Part shown: one piece after another, positions 4,864-63,990 of the stretch
Position numbering within the stretch: position 1 is the first letter of the stretch
How the letters are laid out: every line of letters begins with the position of its first letter
Assembly (NCBI RefSeq): GCF_900106785.1
Contig: NZ_LT629841.1
Span: 181,266 to 245,265 of the forward strand
Source of the DNA: Prevotellamassilia timonensis
Lineage (GTDB): Bacteria; Bacteroidota; Bacteroidia; Bacteroidales; Bacteroidaceae
Reading direction: 5' to 3'
DNA length: 64,000 bases
Program-made: the position numbers and the translations under genes
Notes under the pieces: model-generated
Told to the model about the DNA's origin: nothing
Databases searched by the model: none
What the model saw: only the letters and a program-made list of their open reading frames with translations

Positions 4864-5673
4864 ATGATTAAGAAACTCATGCTACTGCTGCTGTTAGTCG
4901 TGTCAGGACTACAGGCCAGCGCGCAATGCTCGTCGAACAACACGGCATTCAAAAGCGGCGAAACACTTATCTACGACTTGTACTTTAACTGGAAATTTGT
5001 GTGGATAAAGGTGGGCGTGGCCTCAATGAACACCACGCAGACTACCTACGGGGGGCACCCGGCCTTGCGCACGTATCTGATAACACGCGGCTCGAAAAAG
5101 GCTGACAAGATATTTGTGATGCGCGACACGCTGATGGCATACACCGGGCTCGACCTCGTGCCGAAGTATTACGTGAAAAAGGCTTTCGAGGGCAAAACTT
5201 ACCGCAAAAACGAGGTGTGGTACTCTTACCCCAAAGGCAAATGCAACGTGAAGATGCGCTATCAGCGCGACCACAACCCGGCCAGCCACTCAAGTCACTC
5301 GAGCAAATACTGCGCCTTTGACATGATTTCGATGCTGATGCGCGCACGCTCGTTCTCGGCCGAAGGCATGAAGGTGGGACACCGCATCAACTTTTTAATG
5401 GCTGACGGACGCACCTGCGAGTGGAAGAGCATCGTCTATCGCGGCAAGAAGACTTTCAAAATGGAGAACAGCAATACCAAATACCGCTGCCTCGTGTTCT
5501 CGTTTGTTGAAAAGGAGAATGGCAAGGAAAAGGATATCGTTACCTTTTACATTACCGACGACAAGAACCACCTGCCGGTGCGACTTGACATGAACTTGAA
5601 CTTTGGTACTGCCAAGGCGTTCCTTACGGGGGCACGCGGGCTGCGCAACCCGCAAACGGCTAAAATCAAGTAA
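4864..5673 (+). CDS. DUF3108 domain-containing exported protein
   Basis: A 269-residue protein with a cleavable signal peptide (hydrophobic residues 4-20, AQC at about 20-22). The body matches DUF3108: the opening GETLIYDLYFNWKFVWIKVG, then paired beta strands and a C-terminal DDKNHLPVRLDMNLNFGTAKAFLTG. Proteins of this family are predicted periplasmic beta-rich, single-domain, function unknown; the fold resembles lipid-binding proteins. A gap of 121 bases separates it from the Ig-like lipoprotein and I see no promoter box there, so it may be the third gene of that transcript. Its TAA stop directly abuts a 13-bp-unit repeat element. Confidence 0.75.
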   Translation: MIKKLMLLLLLVVSGLQASAQCSSNNTAFKSGETLIYDLYFNWKFVWIKVGVASMNTTQTTYGGHPALRTYLITRGSKKADKIFVMRDTLMAYTGLDLVPKYYVKKAFEGKTYRKNEVWYSYPKGKCNVKMRYQRDHNPASHSSHSSKYCAFDMISMLMRARSFSAEGMKVGHRINFLMADGRTCEWKSIVYRGKKTFKMENSNTKYRCLVFSFVEKENGKEKDIVTFYITDDKNHLPVRLDMNLNFGTAKAFLTGARGLRNPQTAKIK

Positions 5674-5858
5674 CGCAAGCACCAAACGCTAACACTGAAC
5701 GCTAGCACTAATGGGGAGCGACGCGTCTCGCGTCGGTGAGATGGACAACGCACACAATCACCAACATAACAGACCGTGCCCGACGCGAGACGCGTCGCCC
5801 CCATTAGTGCTAGCGTTTGGTGTTAGCGTTTTGTGCTCACGTTTGGTGCTTGCTTTGC
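5672..5858. repeat. 13-bp-unit / GACGCG palindrome element (copy 1)
   Basis: Starting at the stop codon of the DUF3108 gene are in-phase 13-bp units (AAGCACCAAACGC, TAACACTGAACGC), then a core half TAATGGGGAGCGACGCG (from 5709) that contains the mini-hairpin CGACGCG-TCT-CGCGTCG. After a 43-base spacer the mirrored core (5780-5806) ends in CGCCCCCATTA, followed by inverted 13-bp units (TAGCGTTTGGTGT). Other copies lie at 42046-42513 (two) and 58073-58302, and a core-less array at 34921-35199. The spacer of this copy lacks the GGCTCACAGACA hairpin found in the other three. It would fold into a strong hairpin in RNA of either strand. Confidence 0.85.
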
Positions 5859-34500: not shown

Positions 34501-34923
34501 GTGGCCCCCACCACCAGTGCTGCCACGCTGCACATAGCTGGCACCGACCAGCTGCGCAAACCGCTCTACCTGTACGATGCGCACACCAAGCACTACACGC
34601 TGCTCACCGACAGCACGGCTGTAACGCTCACGCCCAATGCGGTGGGCCGCTACGCGCTCACATCGCAAGCCATTGCGCCCCAACCTGTGCAAACGGCCTT
34701 GCGCTGCTGGGCCTCACAGGGGGGCATGGTCACTGCCACCACCGCGCCCGACGATTGCCTGCGTGCGGTGCTTGTGTTCGACCCCACGGGTCGCCTTGTG
34801 CGCGAGTTTCAGCCTGCTGCCGTGTCGTACACTTTCAACTTGCCGGCCGGCCCTTACCTCATCACTGTGTGCTCTGACGCTGTGACGGAGGGCCGCACCT
34901 TCAAGGTGGCGGTGGGGCATTAG
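28543..34923 (+). CDS. Giant fimbrial-operon surface protein (2126 residues) with T9SS-type C-terminal domain
   Basis: A 2126-residue exported protein; signal peptide to about residue 25 (VRAW). The long body is tandem beta-rich segments. Around residues 920-970 is a MAM/jellyroll-like stretch (DFAIDDIRIYVKNPKIEV). Near 1480 the WTNQLANNDNWNNDANW motif is typical of large Bacteroidota adhesins. YLVGNPYMSSLHMKRFF and MTAFFVKP near 1830-1880 are also of that type. The last 60 residues (VFDPTGRLVREF ... LPAGPYLITV ... TFKVAVGH) fit a type-A T9SS sorting domain. As the last gene of the fimbrial operon it is a candidate tip adhesin, functionally like the large Mfa5, but I see no vWA MIDAS motif. 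The TAG stop is also the first base triplet of the 13-bp repeat array. Confidence 0.78.
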   Translation: MTKHLTIRLSLLLLLLFHTATVRAWSVTAVADADVAHAYLNNVASGSIAETKTDVTAIKLSKYYTRILADLGLTENASGQSLYIRWYIENADGTLANIDGKLTPATTDKGHITDTQCLYWCSTLTTTPFNSANKAAILDLNYKNAGTVGQKVVALIAKIDDTNPLTTANGAVTAEPAKFQLKYSFRLVDQTNARACYITTDASHLTADQAYFTCSKNATNFEITADAGNNKFSRLYLVDRTTGQMIENSQDYIAPVNTLWPVLGAFYKTPQGQTFYSRTTATTNPQSLRITLPAGKTPSDIKVVRLYSDNNTGLVAGNLVNVNTKYPDYFVAQDPVAWSSVTEYTYKPYTFQHSSGYAYNYAPEGLKDGRQQVAQWTYQYYVKPGEKRKLIVPIASHDGSDKTTSSIEPTGYWRWYDNATDRACTYISTTNNTGYKLEEPCYDDHDQSYGLFKYQLGYNEWATVENVASVMFNTPTSGWTGTDVACDVSRYKDYPGTAPDVKYEPTLSLRYLFKVRPATDIADNIKKALMSGTAYEDNGHITLGMYNGYKGNITLRMAISDLSMYYFYPYTNTDFAAPSQESHFGTTLCQGKTVTWTAITRIGTKYYYHILKNTEGTEAMLQGRYDININIESFKGEYRPVSDGLGQPSSDVHTISSMAIGQPYYVLAYVNDYDSHTATTKHSTPVARYTCYFRAESAPQDIDSLDYNRTHAVLERNYTQVADISFDDMAGMNYNKPDTIYVNGDAYNNQWNQPLDWNRTYYGFVYPGLTSQMALNSDWMKQWYKYSPYHGDYVIIKSMNDPVASKNAIGSYCFYAPETLYDATYYRTGGKQYGYFVYLDATDEARPIISTDFDANLCEGSTVIATINIANMTDKTAAPPQLMFKLYGEAIDQQTGKKQSQLIQSFASGDFKSVGATETGRWYQVFAFSVIATGTHPEKYSHFYITVDNQGASTDGNDFAIDDIRIYVKNPKIEVLQQSDDADICKNRENGAKLKLTMVYGQVKDALELPNYTDATTDITRPLFWRLVHADTGLPVNTAYGDSTYNAGHTHDYGAIVVHSTDTLNRRNLYADANEYYHLILANRFFKLDPHKQYYVSIATPRRRIVNGVEVYEPSSWGTPNATCSIYSEPQDYVQQDAVVTDENGSVNTTFSAECGATTVMVQMKGRLSLPDGVNGGRIEVSRWPFDWFSGSVADFQAVSGLNTALVNFRAEYPNDTTLQPTKGCYTKADSTLLHQYVKGVPSNSINEYEQKLYLLASDTFKAPFNLPADGNRVVKITLIPLAGQHTEPRTMPVQHFTICGYPLETSATLTHDGPVLNLGFPSVTYPDEWAHTARYLRLDLNQMAALMTDGKYLRVPIHSYADAQRPISTKLHNLQFVTYNAGTAPAQLILSATNDPLNTANIGKSFGTVQNPTIQPATRNLSFNLAPAKAAGIELHEGYDYTLEMQYYDATQNPGSANTCKGTTYITLQVIPEYVTWTNQLANNDNWNNDANWRRASKAELYSTTYKDYGTDIPGLQQTAGSDAGSTPHAFIPLRTTKVIVPTGGEPPFLGTYSVAAHDSLLIYLDNAVNAPATTNIAYYMVLNDKPVTSATGTYYDCVRFYANTCDQVYFKPRAELRYQQYLQYNQAWVDVEMQPGEWTMWSSPLKSVYAGDFYVPQATGRQLTEAFKPITYNAAVNSRAGYPIYQRSWDKAQSMVITDSDDALRNDYDAYIDYDSFSGTDTLAVMQQWSSRYNDVTVPYAPGRGAALLSEDKPLTGQPTLVRLPKADTQYAYYRADGTKRQTVALPARTGQGQLATSDPAVGDPQKLTGRLVISIDEANKHQDNGYYLVGNPYMSSLHMKRFFDQNTQLYPKYWTMQNGQMCAFDASADNVVAPMTAFFVKPVSGTLLQNIEFLPIMTVPFTSAVTQSAEATLRLTLTSGSHTTSASIVADKGAAADFKEGEDVEAMFDSNTTGSALTLYTMAGQLAAAINHVPDLCNVPLGIVAPTTSAATLHIAGTDQLRKPLYLYDAHTKHYTLLTDSTAVTLTPNAVGRYALTSQAIAPQPVQTALRCWASQGGMVTATTAPDDCLRAVLVFDPTGRLVREFQPAAVSYTFNLPAGPYLITVCSDAVTEGRTFKVAVGH

Positions 34924-35199
34924 CACTAAACGATAGCACTAAACGTTAGTGCTAAACGCTGGCACTAAAGGCTAACACTAAATGCTAACACTAAACGCAA
35001 GTACTAAAGGCAAGTACTAAAGGCAAGTACTAAACGCTTGCACTAAATGCAAGCACTAAACGCAAACACAAAACGCAAGTACTAAATGCTAACACTAAAC
35101 GCTTGCGTTTAGTGCTTGCATTTGGTGTTAGCGTTTAGTGCTTGCGTTTAGTGTTAGCATTTAGTGTTAGCATTTAGTGTTAGCATTTAGTGCTTGCGT
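34921..35199. repeat. 13-bp tandem array, 14 forward and 7 inverted units
   Basis: From the stop codon onward, fourteen 13-bp units of form TAGCACTAAACGC run to 35102, in exact phase; then seven units in inverted orientation (TTGCGTTTAGTGC type) run to 35193. The two halves can pair over about 90 bp. The array is followed by GAGGCGCCTC and GTCCCCATTAGTGC (35208-35231), which resembles the right core of the GACGCG elements. The units are those that flank the GACGCG cores at 5672, 42046 and 58073. Confidence 0.95.
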
Positions 35200-37051: not shown

Positions 37052-37257
37052 GCGCTCGGTTTGCAGTACAATTAGATAAAGTACGCGCCACCTACGCGGC
37101 ACCTCGGCAATGAAAAGGAAAAAGATTGCATCGTTTTTCCTTTTCATTGCGCTCGGTTTGCAGTACCTTTGAATAAGCTACGCGGCACCTCGGCAATGAA
37201 AAGGAAAAAGATTGCATCGTTTTTCCTTTCCATTGCGCTCGGTTTGCAGTACCTTTG
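37052..37257 (+). repeat. Tandem promoter array before rpoN
   Basis: Units begin at 37052 (decayed), 37149 and 37235, the last two with an 86-bp period. Each holds GCGCTCGGTTTGCAG; units 2 and 3 then have the -7 box TACCTTTG (37164-37171, 37250-37257). Between them lies AAGCTACGCGGCACCTC and a hairpin (AATGAAAAGGAAAAA with TTTTTCCTTTTCATT). The third box is about 23 bases before the rpoN ATG at 37280. Confidence 0.85.
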
Positions 37258-42012: not shown

Positions 42013-42045
42013 CCGGTTCTTGGCTATAGGCTATGCTGCCTGTTA

Positions 42046-42513
42046 AAACGTGAACAGGCGAACGTTCTCAAGTACAAAACACAAGCACCCAACGCTAGCA
42101 TCAAACGCTAACTCTAATGGGGGCGACGCGTCTCGCGTCGGGGAAGTGCCATGTTCATACACTTAATAAAGGCTCACAGACAGTGCTAATTACACGCTTG
42201 TTTGTGAGCCTTTGCTTTCATTTCCGACGCGGGACGCGTCGCCCCCATTAGAGCTTGCGTTGGGTGGTAGCGTTGGGGGTGCATTTGGTGCTAGAAGAAA
42301 CGCAAGCACTAATGGGGGCGACGCGTCTCGCGTCGGGAAAGTGCCATGTTCATACACTTAATAAAGGCTCACAGACAATGCCAATTACACGCTTGTCTGT
42401 GAGCCTTTGATTTCATTTCCGACGCGGGACGCGTCGCCCCCATTAGAGCTTGCGTTTAGTGGTAGCGTTGGGTGCTTGAGTTTTGTGCTTGAGTCCGTTC
42501 GATGTTTACGTTT
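42046..42513. repeat. Double 13-bp-unit / GACGCG element with terminal inverted repeats
   Basis: Two core copies in tandem (42115-42250 and 42310-42444). Each has TAATGGGGGCGACGCG, the mini-hairpin CGACGCG-TCT-CGCGTCG, an inner AGGCTCACAGACA hairpin, and the mirrored CGCCCCCATTA. They are joined and flanked by in-phase 13-bp units (AAGCACCCAACGC and so on). The ends are inverted repeats: left AAACGTGAACAGGCGAACG... and right (reverse complement) AAACGTAAACATCGAACGG..., together about 50 bp. The two internal halves are almost identical, so one is a recent duplicate. It lies between ispG and the nucleoside kinase. Confidence 0.9.
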
Positions 42514-42561
42514 CACCAGAGACAAGTACACTATGACGCGTTTAACCCGTCAACCTATACG

Positions 42562-51545: not shown

Positions 51546-52236
51546 ATTGCCGCTTAGCGCGGAAGACATAAGAATATAAGTTGCAGCGTGTGTTAGCCGC
51601 TAACGCGGAATACATAAGAACATAAGAACAAAAGAACATAAGATATGACGTTTGTGTTAGCCGCTTACCGCGGGAACATAAGAACATAAGCTACATAAGT
51701 AACATATAAGGCCGCTGCGCGACTGACGGCCACGGACTAACGTCCGGGTGGCCTCAAGAAACATAAGGGCTGACACCGTAGCGTGGATTGGCAGCCGCTA
51801 ACGCGGTAAACATAAGAACATAAGGACATAAGGACATAAGGGCTGACGCCGTAGTATTACATATAATAACGCTACGGCGTCAGCCCTTATGTTTCTTGAG
51901 GCCACCCGGACGATAGTCCGTGGCCGTCAGCCGCGCAGCGGCCTTATATGTTTCTTATGTAGCTTATGTTACTTATGTCTCCCGCGCTAAGCGGCAAGCA
52001 CGAACGTTATCTTCTGTTCTTATGTGTCCTTATGTCTCCCGCGTTAGCGGCTGTCAAGCCACGCTACGGCGTCAGCCCTTATGTCTCTTGAGGCCACCCG
52101 GACGATAGTCCGTGGCCGTCAGCCGCGCAGCGGCCTTATATGTTTCTTATGTAGCTTATGTTCTTATGTCTCCGCGGTAAGCGGCTAACACAAACGATAT
52201 ATCTTATGTCCTTCTGTCTTCCGCGCTAAGCGGCAA
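51546..52236. repeat. Nested palindrome element of CCGCTAACGCGG and ACATAAG units (copy 1)
   Basis: About 690 bp with ends ATTGCCGCTTAGCGCGGAAG and its inverted copy at 52207-52236. Inside are CCGC-TAAC-GCGG-type hairpins, runs of ACATAAG, a block GGCCGCTGCGCG...GACGGCCACGGACTAACGTCC, and GGGCTGACGCCGTAGCG, in direct order on the left and inverted on the right; the right half contains the mirror block twice. Copies at 57194-57594 and 61522-62013. No gene in this 1000-base gap. Confidence 0.9.
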
Positions 52237-57110: not shown

Positions 57111-57145
57111 CGGGGCAACACAGCATATATGAATATTGCTGTCAA

Positions 57146-57172
57146 GTGAAACGTTAACTTACGAACGGACTC
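57146..57172. repeat. Solo end of the GACGCG element (AAACGT...GGACTCAAG)
   Basis: AAACGTTAACTTACGAACGG followed by ACTCAAG closely matches the terminal inverted repeat of the double element at 42046-42513. No core follows; the CCGCTAACGCGG element starts right after. Confidence 0.6.
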
Positions 57173-57193
57173 AAGAAGTCGTAACGTGTGTGT

Positions 57194-57594
57194 TAGCCGC
57201 TAACGCGGGAGACATAAGAACATAAGCTACATAAGAAACATATAAGGCCGCTGCGCGGCTGACGGCCACGGACTAACGTCCGGGTGGCCTCAAGAAACAT
57301 AAGGGCTGACGCCGTAGCGTGGATTGGCAGCCGCTAACGCGGTAAACAGAAGAACATAAGAACATAAGGACATAAGGGCTGACGCCGTAGCGTTACTATA
57401 TGTAACACTACGGCGTCAGCCCTTATGTCTCTTGAGGCCACCCGGACGTTAGTCCGTGGCCGTCAGCCGCGCAGCGGCCTTATATGTTTCTTATGTAGCT
57501 TATGTTCTTATGTTCCCGCGGTAAGCGGCTAACACAAACGTCATACTTCTGTTCTTATGTCCTTATGTTCTTATGTCTTCCGCGTTAGCGGCTA
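57194..57594. repeat. Nested palindrome element of CCGCTAACGCGG and ACATAAG units (copy 2)
   Basis: About 400 bp, nearly symmetric about the centre near 57398 (GCGTTACTATATGTAACACTA). The modules are in the same order as copy 1: CCGCTAACGCGG, ACATAAG runs, GGCCGCTGCGCGGCTGACGG, GGGCTGACGCCGTAGCG, then mirror images. It follows the OprP-like porin gene by about 85 bases and could act as its transcript end. Confidence 0.9.
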
Positions 57595-57632
57595 ACACAT
57601 GCGCTTAACAACTAACAAGAAATGCAAAAGTG

Positions 57633-58072: not shown

Positions 58073-58302
58073 GCACAAGCACCCAACGCAAGCACCAAGC
58101 ACTACCACTAAGCGCTACCTCTAATGGGGGCGACGCGTCCCGCGTCGGGATTAAAGACAAAGGCTCACAGACAGGCAGTGTAATCACTGCTGTCTGTGAG
58201 CCTTTATTTTGTGTATGGACATTGCATTTTTCCCCGACGCGGGACGCGTCGCCCCCATTAGAGGTAGCGTTGGGTACTTGAGTCCGTTAGCATGTTTACG
58301 TT
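58073..58302. repeat. 13-bp-unit / GACGCG element with inner terminator-like hairpin (copy 4)
   Basis: In-phase 13-bp units (AAGCACCCAACGC and relatives), core TAATGGGGGCGACGCG (58122 on), an inner hairpin AAAGGCTCACAGACAG/CTGTCTGTGAGCCTTT (58159-58205, bidirectional terminator shape), the mirrored core (58233-58260), and a right end GTCCGTTAGCATGTTTACGTTT-like sequence as at 42494-42513. The left terminal repeat is missing and replaced by the CTGCACC module. The right end is 22 bases after the cysS stop codon. Confidence 0.9.
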
Positions 58303-58324
58303 TATAATAGAGAATGTATGCGCA

Positions 58325-61521: not shown

Positions 61522-62013
61522 GCTGACGCCGTAGCGTGACTTGGCAGCCGCTAACGCGGGAGACAGAAGAACATAAGGACATAAGGACATAAGGCCGCTG
61601 CGCGGCTGATAGCCACGGACTGACGTCTGCGTGGCTCAAGAACATAAGGGCTAACGCCGAGGTGGGGACTTTTGAAGCGCTTACCGCGGGAACATAAGAA
61701 CATAAGCTACATAAGAGACATAAATTGGAAGTCTAGGAACTGCGTTCCCAGACTATAAGAGACATAAGGGCTGACGCCGTAGCGTGACTACTTGAGTAGT
61801 ACTTGGTACGCTACGGCGTCAGCCCTTATGTTCTTGAGCCACGCGGACGTCAGTCCGTGGCCTTCAGCCGCGCAGCGGCCTTATGTTCTTTTGTTCTTAT
61901 GTTCTTCTGTTTTCCGCGTTAGCGGCTAACACACTCCACAACTTATGTCCTTATGCCCTTATGTTCTTCTGCTTTCCGCGTTAGCGGCTGCCAAGTCACG
62001 CTACGGCGTCAGC
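61522..62013. repeat. Nested palindrome element with perfect 38-bp terminal inverted repeats (copy 3)
   Basis: The ends 61522-61559 and 61976-62013 are perfect 38-bp inverted repeats starting GCTGACGCCGTAGCG and ending GCCGCTAACGCGG. Inside are the usual modules (ACATAAG runs, GGCCGCTGCGCGGCTG, CCACGGACTGACGTC) and an extra hairpin, GGAAGTCTAGGAACTGCGTTCCCAGACT. The right end includes the stop codon of the DUF488 gene on the minus strand. Confidence 0.92.
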
Positions 62014-63799: not shown

Positions 63800-63990
63800 G
63801 TAGGGGGGAGAGGGGGTAGAGAGTTAGGGGGTTAAGAGGTTAGAGGGTTAAGAGGTTAGAGGGTTAAGGGGTTAGAAGGTTAAAAAGTCACCTTTGTGAG
63901 TTGAACAAGCAATGGTAATCTTTTAACCCACTAACCCATTAACCCTCTAACCCATTAACCCTCATAACCCCCTAACCTTATAACCCCTAA
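63800..63990. repeat. GTTAGG/CTAACC array (second copy)
   Basis: Left arm: about six AGAGGGTTAAGAGGTT-type steps; centre AAAAAGTCACCTTTGTGAG...GGTAATCTTTTAACCCA; right arm of CTAACCCATTAACCC steps. Same order as 49555-49700. It fills the end of the window. Confidence 0.8.

Follow-up and report, generated by a model that had tools for sequence, protein, structure and literature searches.

Between two convergent ORFs of the window, the 64,000-nucleotide stretch of DNA analyzed here, lies a nested palindrome (42032-42527), and the locus raises the question of what kind of element this is, which of its layers is the unit that has spread and what might mobilize it. Read from its margins to its center, the element is built of inverted ends, then 13-bp units, then the arms (GGGGGCGACGCGTCYCGCGTCGG) and, innermost, a spacer that contains a hairpin of 15 bp. 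The inverted ends, with the core AAACGTRAAC...CGAACG...CTCAAG, were found at 42046-42064 on the plus strand (AAACGTGAACAGGCGAACG) and at 42496-42513 on the minus strand (AAACGTAAACATCGAACG), with none expected in shuffled sequence, which bears out the inverted AAACGTRAAC...CGAACG ends described in an earlier, sequence-only reading. The inverted flanks 42059-42141 and 42419-42501 are 88% complementary over 83 nt, and single-strand folding of the element gave z = -25 relative to dinucleotide shuffles. An Rfam search of positions 35000-64000 of the window returned no match at the gathering threshold.

The left outer inverted end (42032-42072, plus strand; TATGCTGCCTGTTAAAACGTGAACAGGCGAACGTTCTCAAG) fits the outer-end consensus TATTGCWGTCCGGTRAAACGTAAACATGCGAACGGACTCAAG and is followed by a left shoulder of 13-bp units of the AAACGCWASCWCY type that closes with TCTAAT (42073-42118, plus strand). 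Inside the shoulder lie a REP-like arm, composed of a GGGGG foot and a 7-bp hairpin with a 3-nt loop (42119-42141, plus strand), a T-type spacer (42142-42223, plus strand) containing a hairpin (42168-42182/42199-42213), and the inverted partner of the arm (42224-42246, minus strand). Further 13-bp units (42247-42313) separate this unit from a second one, built of a plus-strand arm (42314-42336), a T-type spacer (42337-42418, plus strand; hairpin 42363-42377/42394-42408) and the inverted partner of that arm (42419-42441, minus strand). A right shoulder of 13-bp units in inverted orientation (42442-42487, minus strand) and the right outer inverted end (42488-42527, minus strand) complete the element, the outer boundaries being extrapolated from the profile. 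The 175-nt arm-spacer-arm core thus occurs in two copies of 94% identity, spaced 195 nt apart, with one nested hairpin AAAGGCTCACAGACA in each (at 42168/42199 and 42363/42394); the 13-bp units and the two near-identical palindromic cores with a nested hairpin had been recognized correctly from the letters. The window element is two tandem REPIN-like units, that is, inverted doublets of REP hairpins, within one pair of outer ends. Since tandem neighbors of the family are 89% identical, compared with 73% between unlinked copies, the double structure is best read as a local duplication.

Other members of the family occur in the window. A second complete element (58073-58305) has shoulders, arms at 58126-58148 (plus) and 58234-58256 (minus), a T-type spacer and a right outer end. 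The right terminal repeat had been said to recur at 58280-58302, and it does, where it closes this further element. A solo outer end with no adjacent arm (57137-57175, plus strand) was also anticipated, although its repeat lies at 57149-57175, three bases from the 57146-57172 given for it. A third doublet (5668-5850), with arms at 5714-5736 (plus) and 5780-5802 (minus), an unusual 43-nt spacer, 13-mer shoulders and no outer end seen, had been overlooked (5714-5802), as had the genome-wide family and a mirrored 13-mer array (34921-35197) of 14 units followed by about seven inverted ones around a center without REP arms. No other clear mirrored array was seen in about 854 kb, and a degenerate arm-like sequence, GCGAGGCGCCTCGTCCCCATTAG, lies immediately outside this one.

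The window holds repeats of other kinds as well. A second palindromic type, with ACATAAG tandem units and GGCTGACGCCGTAGCG-type inverted repeats, is found at 51600-51850, 57200-57600 and 61550-61970, one copy directly adjoining the solo outer end. An 86-bp unit is present in nearly two repeats of 98% identity at 37092-37257, within a coding region close to its beginning or just beside it, and facing arrays of 8-bp units of the GGTTAGA and TAACCCAC types at 63811-63986 could form another large hairpin.

The scale of the family became apparent in the whole genome (3.48 Mb in 17 contigs), the anatomy being drawn from about a quarter of it together with targeted loci. With up to two mismatches, the REP-like arm has 487 genomic matches (242 + 245), and a reversed-pattern control has none; the family comprises about 240 REP doublets in one species. 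The arm consensus, GGGGG-CGACGCG-TCY-CGCGTCG, is a G foot with a short hairpin. The 854 kb sampled contain 64 sites, mostly plus-minus arm pairs; counted from the listed patterns, there are 52 inverted doublets and 31 unpaired arms, a singlet-to-doublet ratio below 2, as is expected of REPINs. The doublets are oriented with their feet outward, and their spacers fall into two preferred length classes, mainly 51-53 or 82-87 nt. By sequence, 49 of 106 spacers are of the T type with the AGGCTCACAGACA hairpin, as in the window, and 41 are of the B type that surrounds the RAYT gene discussed below.

Which part of the copies is conserved indicates what the unit is. Across 247 distinct arms, conservation peaks from position -16, within the first 13-mer, to +22 and drops at once further inward; the foot TAATGGGGG is conserved and all seven stem pairs are intact in 227. 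Because foot and hairpin are conserved and conservation collapses just inside them, we class the arm as REP-like, a foot followed by a hairpin, and the doublet as REPIN-like, but since the foot is TAATGGGGG rather than GT[AG]G, we do not file it as a canonical GTAG REP. The sequence-only reading holds in part: the element is repeated and palindromic, apparently codes for nothing, is probably mobile, and its outer end is well defined. What repeats, however, is the inner doublet of arm, spacer and arm, with its 487 arms.

The emphasis on the outer ends as the defining unit was misplaced, as their distribution makes clear: an outer end was found at only 36 of 136 arms (26%), and almost without exception the two are 50+13k nt apart. 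At least one 13-mer stands directly outward of 118 of these arms (87%), with up to ten in a row; conversely, 83 of 90 13-mer arrays adjoin an arm, and pairs of 13-mers match 441 times in the genome. Other copies with the ends of the window element do exist, as had been expected of a mobile element; the outer-end core has 73 genomic matches (up to three mismatches; control, 0), mostly in 13-bp register with arms, and outer ends are seldom free of the REPIN family. Given the 13-bp units outward of the arms and this spacing of the ends, each outer end marks the margin of an elongated REPIN arm. We conclude that outer end, 13-mers and arm belong to one long arm, the central part of which has gained and lost length, and that the outer end either disappeared from many copies or was never part of them.

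These observations bear on whether the element is a classic MITE, a non-autonomous transposon derivative with a transposase recognizing the outer ends and the REP arms as passive cargo. The outer ends are well defined and common to many unlinked copies, as a MITE would have it, but they are missing from most arms and, being in 13-bp register with them, have no independent frame. A transposase with matching terminal repeats had been proposed as something to look for; between facing outer ends less than 1.5 kb apart lie stretches of repeat sequence, 97 to 1163 bp long, in which no gene of transposase size was recognized at the loci read. Direct repeats at two-ended elements gave a mixed picture. 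The longest averaged 4.1 nt, slightly above the 3.3 nt of shuffled pairings, a mean reached by one of 300 shuffles and to which one 7-nt case contributes, but the 3-7 nt matches found in this target-duplication search vary in length, sequence and offset. On balance we consider a MITE improbable. Some copies carry a further outer inverted layer, GGTAGGGTGTTCAAAATCGGCATCAAAAA...TTTTTGATGCCGATTTTGAACACCCTACC, seen at three aligned loci (L133, L124 and L098; alignment A1) and on the right side of two others (L105 and L081); this layer may be an independent MITE that acquired a REPIN or expanded around one.

Empty sites were sought as well. At the loci of 29 relatives, the gene facing the window element was never beside the same partner, and the RAYT neighborhood is rearranged between species; no clean empty site was found at any of the loci compared. 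A paralogue without the core (L098:18380-18760) was considered as a pre-insertion site; its junction, AAACGC followed by GTCGCCCCC, retains part of an arm and therefore reads as a deletion at short homology.

The copies lie mostly between genes: 60 of 64 sites are outside ORFs picked by a crude longest-first rule, although these ORFs cover 84% of the sequence. One could therefore ask whether the family is a functional host element, a bidirectional terminator or mRNA 3'-end stabilizer selected between convergent genes. The window element itself sits in such a gap, the T-type spacer carries a 15-bp hairpin, and convergent gaps hold slightly more than their share (17 of 55 sites as against 77 of 406 gaps). 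However, divergent gaps are occupied too (9 of 55 sites), about half of the doublets have no T-type hairpin, and where it is present it comes without a called T-rich tail and does not qualify as an intrinsic terminator. Compensated changes in 45 T-type hairpins do not exceed those in shuffles, no selection on this hairpin was seen, and the family does not occur in the sister species. Host function is thus a very unlikely explanation of the family, and the T-type hairpin may affect transcript ends by chance.

A candidate mobilizing enzyme is encoded in the same genome. Its single Y1/HUH transposase gene (PF01797; C15:260773-261390), an open frame of 206 aa, is flanked by REPINs of this very family, two on one side and three on the other. 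The protein contains the motifs NHVH, WQ and YIARNP (HUH and Tyr); it scores 69.5 bits against the NCBIfam model of REP-associated tyrosine transposases, NF047646, under the curated cut-off of 80. A profile built from it and 12 relatives has TnpA_REP (PDB ID: 4ER8) as its best match among PDB sequences, with an E-value of 4.5e-11, followed by IS200-type enzymes at 2.6e-6. RAYT-like genes are present in 6 of 58 genus genomes, the source included, and the hairpins beside them differ by species: one genome has GTGCAGCATTCTTGCTGCAC after GGAG (G017), another GTACCACGTCCATTGACGTGGTAC (G069), and both genes of a third (G036) likewise have recurrent hairpins of their own. Two similar, non-identical hairpins lie near the gene of G012, and no recurrent hairpin was found near that of G077. 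A separate observation concerns contig C47 of G036 (L144:253-3048, minus strand), where the RAYT-like Y1 domain is in frame within a 931-aa ORF resembling a DNA methyltransferase (compare L146 and L142), with REP-like hairpins (GGGAGC-GCGGGCG-GCCT-CGCCCGC) translated in frame on either side of the domain; in G012 and G017, too, there are long open frames around the RAYT-like genes.

The RAYT could instead be a bystander that landed in an array of palindromes spread by recombination or template switching alone. Recombination or slippage has evidently acted on the family, as the tandem clusters and the 13-mer ladder show, and mosaic nesting of its copies with other repeats is common. Passive amplification nevertheless sits poorly with hundreds of dispersed copies whose foot-hairpin arms are conserved and sharply bounded, with the only Y1 gene of the genome adjoining an array of precisely this family, and with the recurrence of gene and own hairpin, in other sequences, in other species. 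The left and right shoulders of one copy are also no more alike than random pairs, so that arm-to-arm (concerted) copying is not seen. That the repeats spread by such processes alone is, in our estimate, highly improbable.

The 13-mer pairs and outer ends occur in the source genome alone among 58 genus genomes, and the arms are likewise confined to the source species. Among 398 other genomes of the family-level lineage, arms were found in only one, as three copies of a compensated stem variant. All three modules being species-confined, it appears that they originated jointly in this lineage and spread as a set. In G036 (L083-L085) we noted a sister family of hairpins that likewise has a GGGGG foot, with a stem changed on both sides (CGACGCT/AGCGTCG), opposite-facing copies of which lie about 85 nt apart; this family is absent beside the two RAYT-like genes of that genome.

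Taken together, the window element is, with a probability of roughly 0.78, a tandem REPIN-like pair belonging to a species-specific family of about 240 doublets, most likely mobilized by the single RAYT of the genome, a TnpA_REP-like Y1/HUH enzyme; we infer mobilization by the RAYT from sequence. In the mechanism we propose, the arms would fold in single-stranded DNA, the RAYT would read the G-rich foot and stem and cleave beside the arms, and the doublet would be copied or joined elsewhere without target duplication. The 13-bp shoulders would lengthen and shorten through slippage or unequal exchange, so that the outer end would come to lie 50+13k nt away from the arm, and tandem clusters like the window element would arise by this exchange as well; gene-internal copies would presumably be lost. 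A more specific and tentative variant, which we find rather doubtful, is a RAYT-mobilized hybrid of REPIN and minisatellite, in which the in-register 13-bp iterons between outer end and REP hairpin would be a functional, length-variable recognition or assembly site and the enzyme would read a G-rich foot in place of GTAG; alternatively, the iterons would be slippage debris. Our literature searches, which covered open-licence papers, yielded no report of a REP with 13-bp shoulders in register.

As judged by anatomy and enzyme, the system belongs with REPIN-RAYT systems in the broad sense. Like the REPtrons of P. fluorescens SBW25 and the REPSm of S. maltophilia, the latter with an 8-bp palindrome, a 3-nt loop and an unpaired 5' foot (PMC3116915, PMC8266576), it has a short perfect hairpin with an unpaired foot (here 7 bp and 3 nt), doublets in excess of singlets, extragenic location and high copy number, as well as ordered tandem clusters and a single RAYT flanked by clusters of its own doublet. 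A private hairpin family per RAYT is also the pattern reported for REPtrons (PMC6006769, PMC3116915). The foot, however, is GGGGG here and GTAG there, two main spacers are interchangeable here, the host is of a Bacteroidales-type lineage rather than a proteobacterium, and in-register 13-bp shoulders with a long outer inverted end set these elements apart from ordinary REPINs. With the Bacteroidetes TnpA_REP subclasses 2.4 and 2.6 the enzyme shares the Y1/HUH motifs NH-h-H, WQ and YI..NP, although, in this comparison by motif, YIARNP fits neither printed consensus exactly (YIxNNP in 2.4 and YIH[QN]NP in 2.6); subclass 2.6 is associated with atypical secondary structures that lack the GT[AG]G consensus (PMC6006769).

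Three other kinds of repeat invite comparison. In TIRtrons, inverted repeats with further copies scattered over the genome flank the RAYT-like genes (TIRYTs), and some share a G-rich GGGGWSAS motif (PMC3733652); the dispersed inverted repeats flanking a RAYT-like gene are shared with the present system, but here the gene-adjacent repeats are hairpin arms, and GGGGCGAC is outside GGGGWSAS. CGTC-tagged REPs are likewise small GC-rich palindromes, mostly in inverted dimers, but carry CGTC as an unpaired tag and have no associated transposase (PMC3733652), whereas here CGTC is inside the stem and a RAYT lies among the repeats, which places the family outside that class. The nearest element with tandem units in its order is BrickBuilt, also from the Bacteroidales, a MITE of P. 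gingivalis with 23-bp units, ends like those of P. gingivalis IS elements and 19 copies in the strain described (PMC4596501). It shares inverted ends, internal short tandem units and many copies lacking one or both ends, and differs in its ends, units and copy number: the present family has hairpin arms and a RAYT, numbers hundreds of copies and arranges its 13-bp units in mirrored arrays.

REPIN-RAYT pairs are a leading example of mobile DNA that behaves like a population within one bacterial genome, and the experimental studies of them in the literature consulted concern Proteobacteria and the GTAG foot. The GGGGG recognition foot and the expandable 13-base shoulders are unusual by that measure, and a large family confined to one species, with a RAYT of its own, ladder-like shoulders and a G-rich foot, offers a natural variant for studying what the enzyme reads and how the elements grow; since the other RAYTs of the genus carry other hairpins, the genus allows pairwise comparisons of enzyme and repeat.
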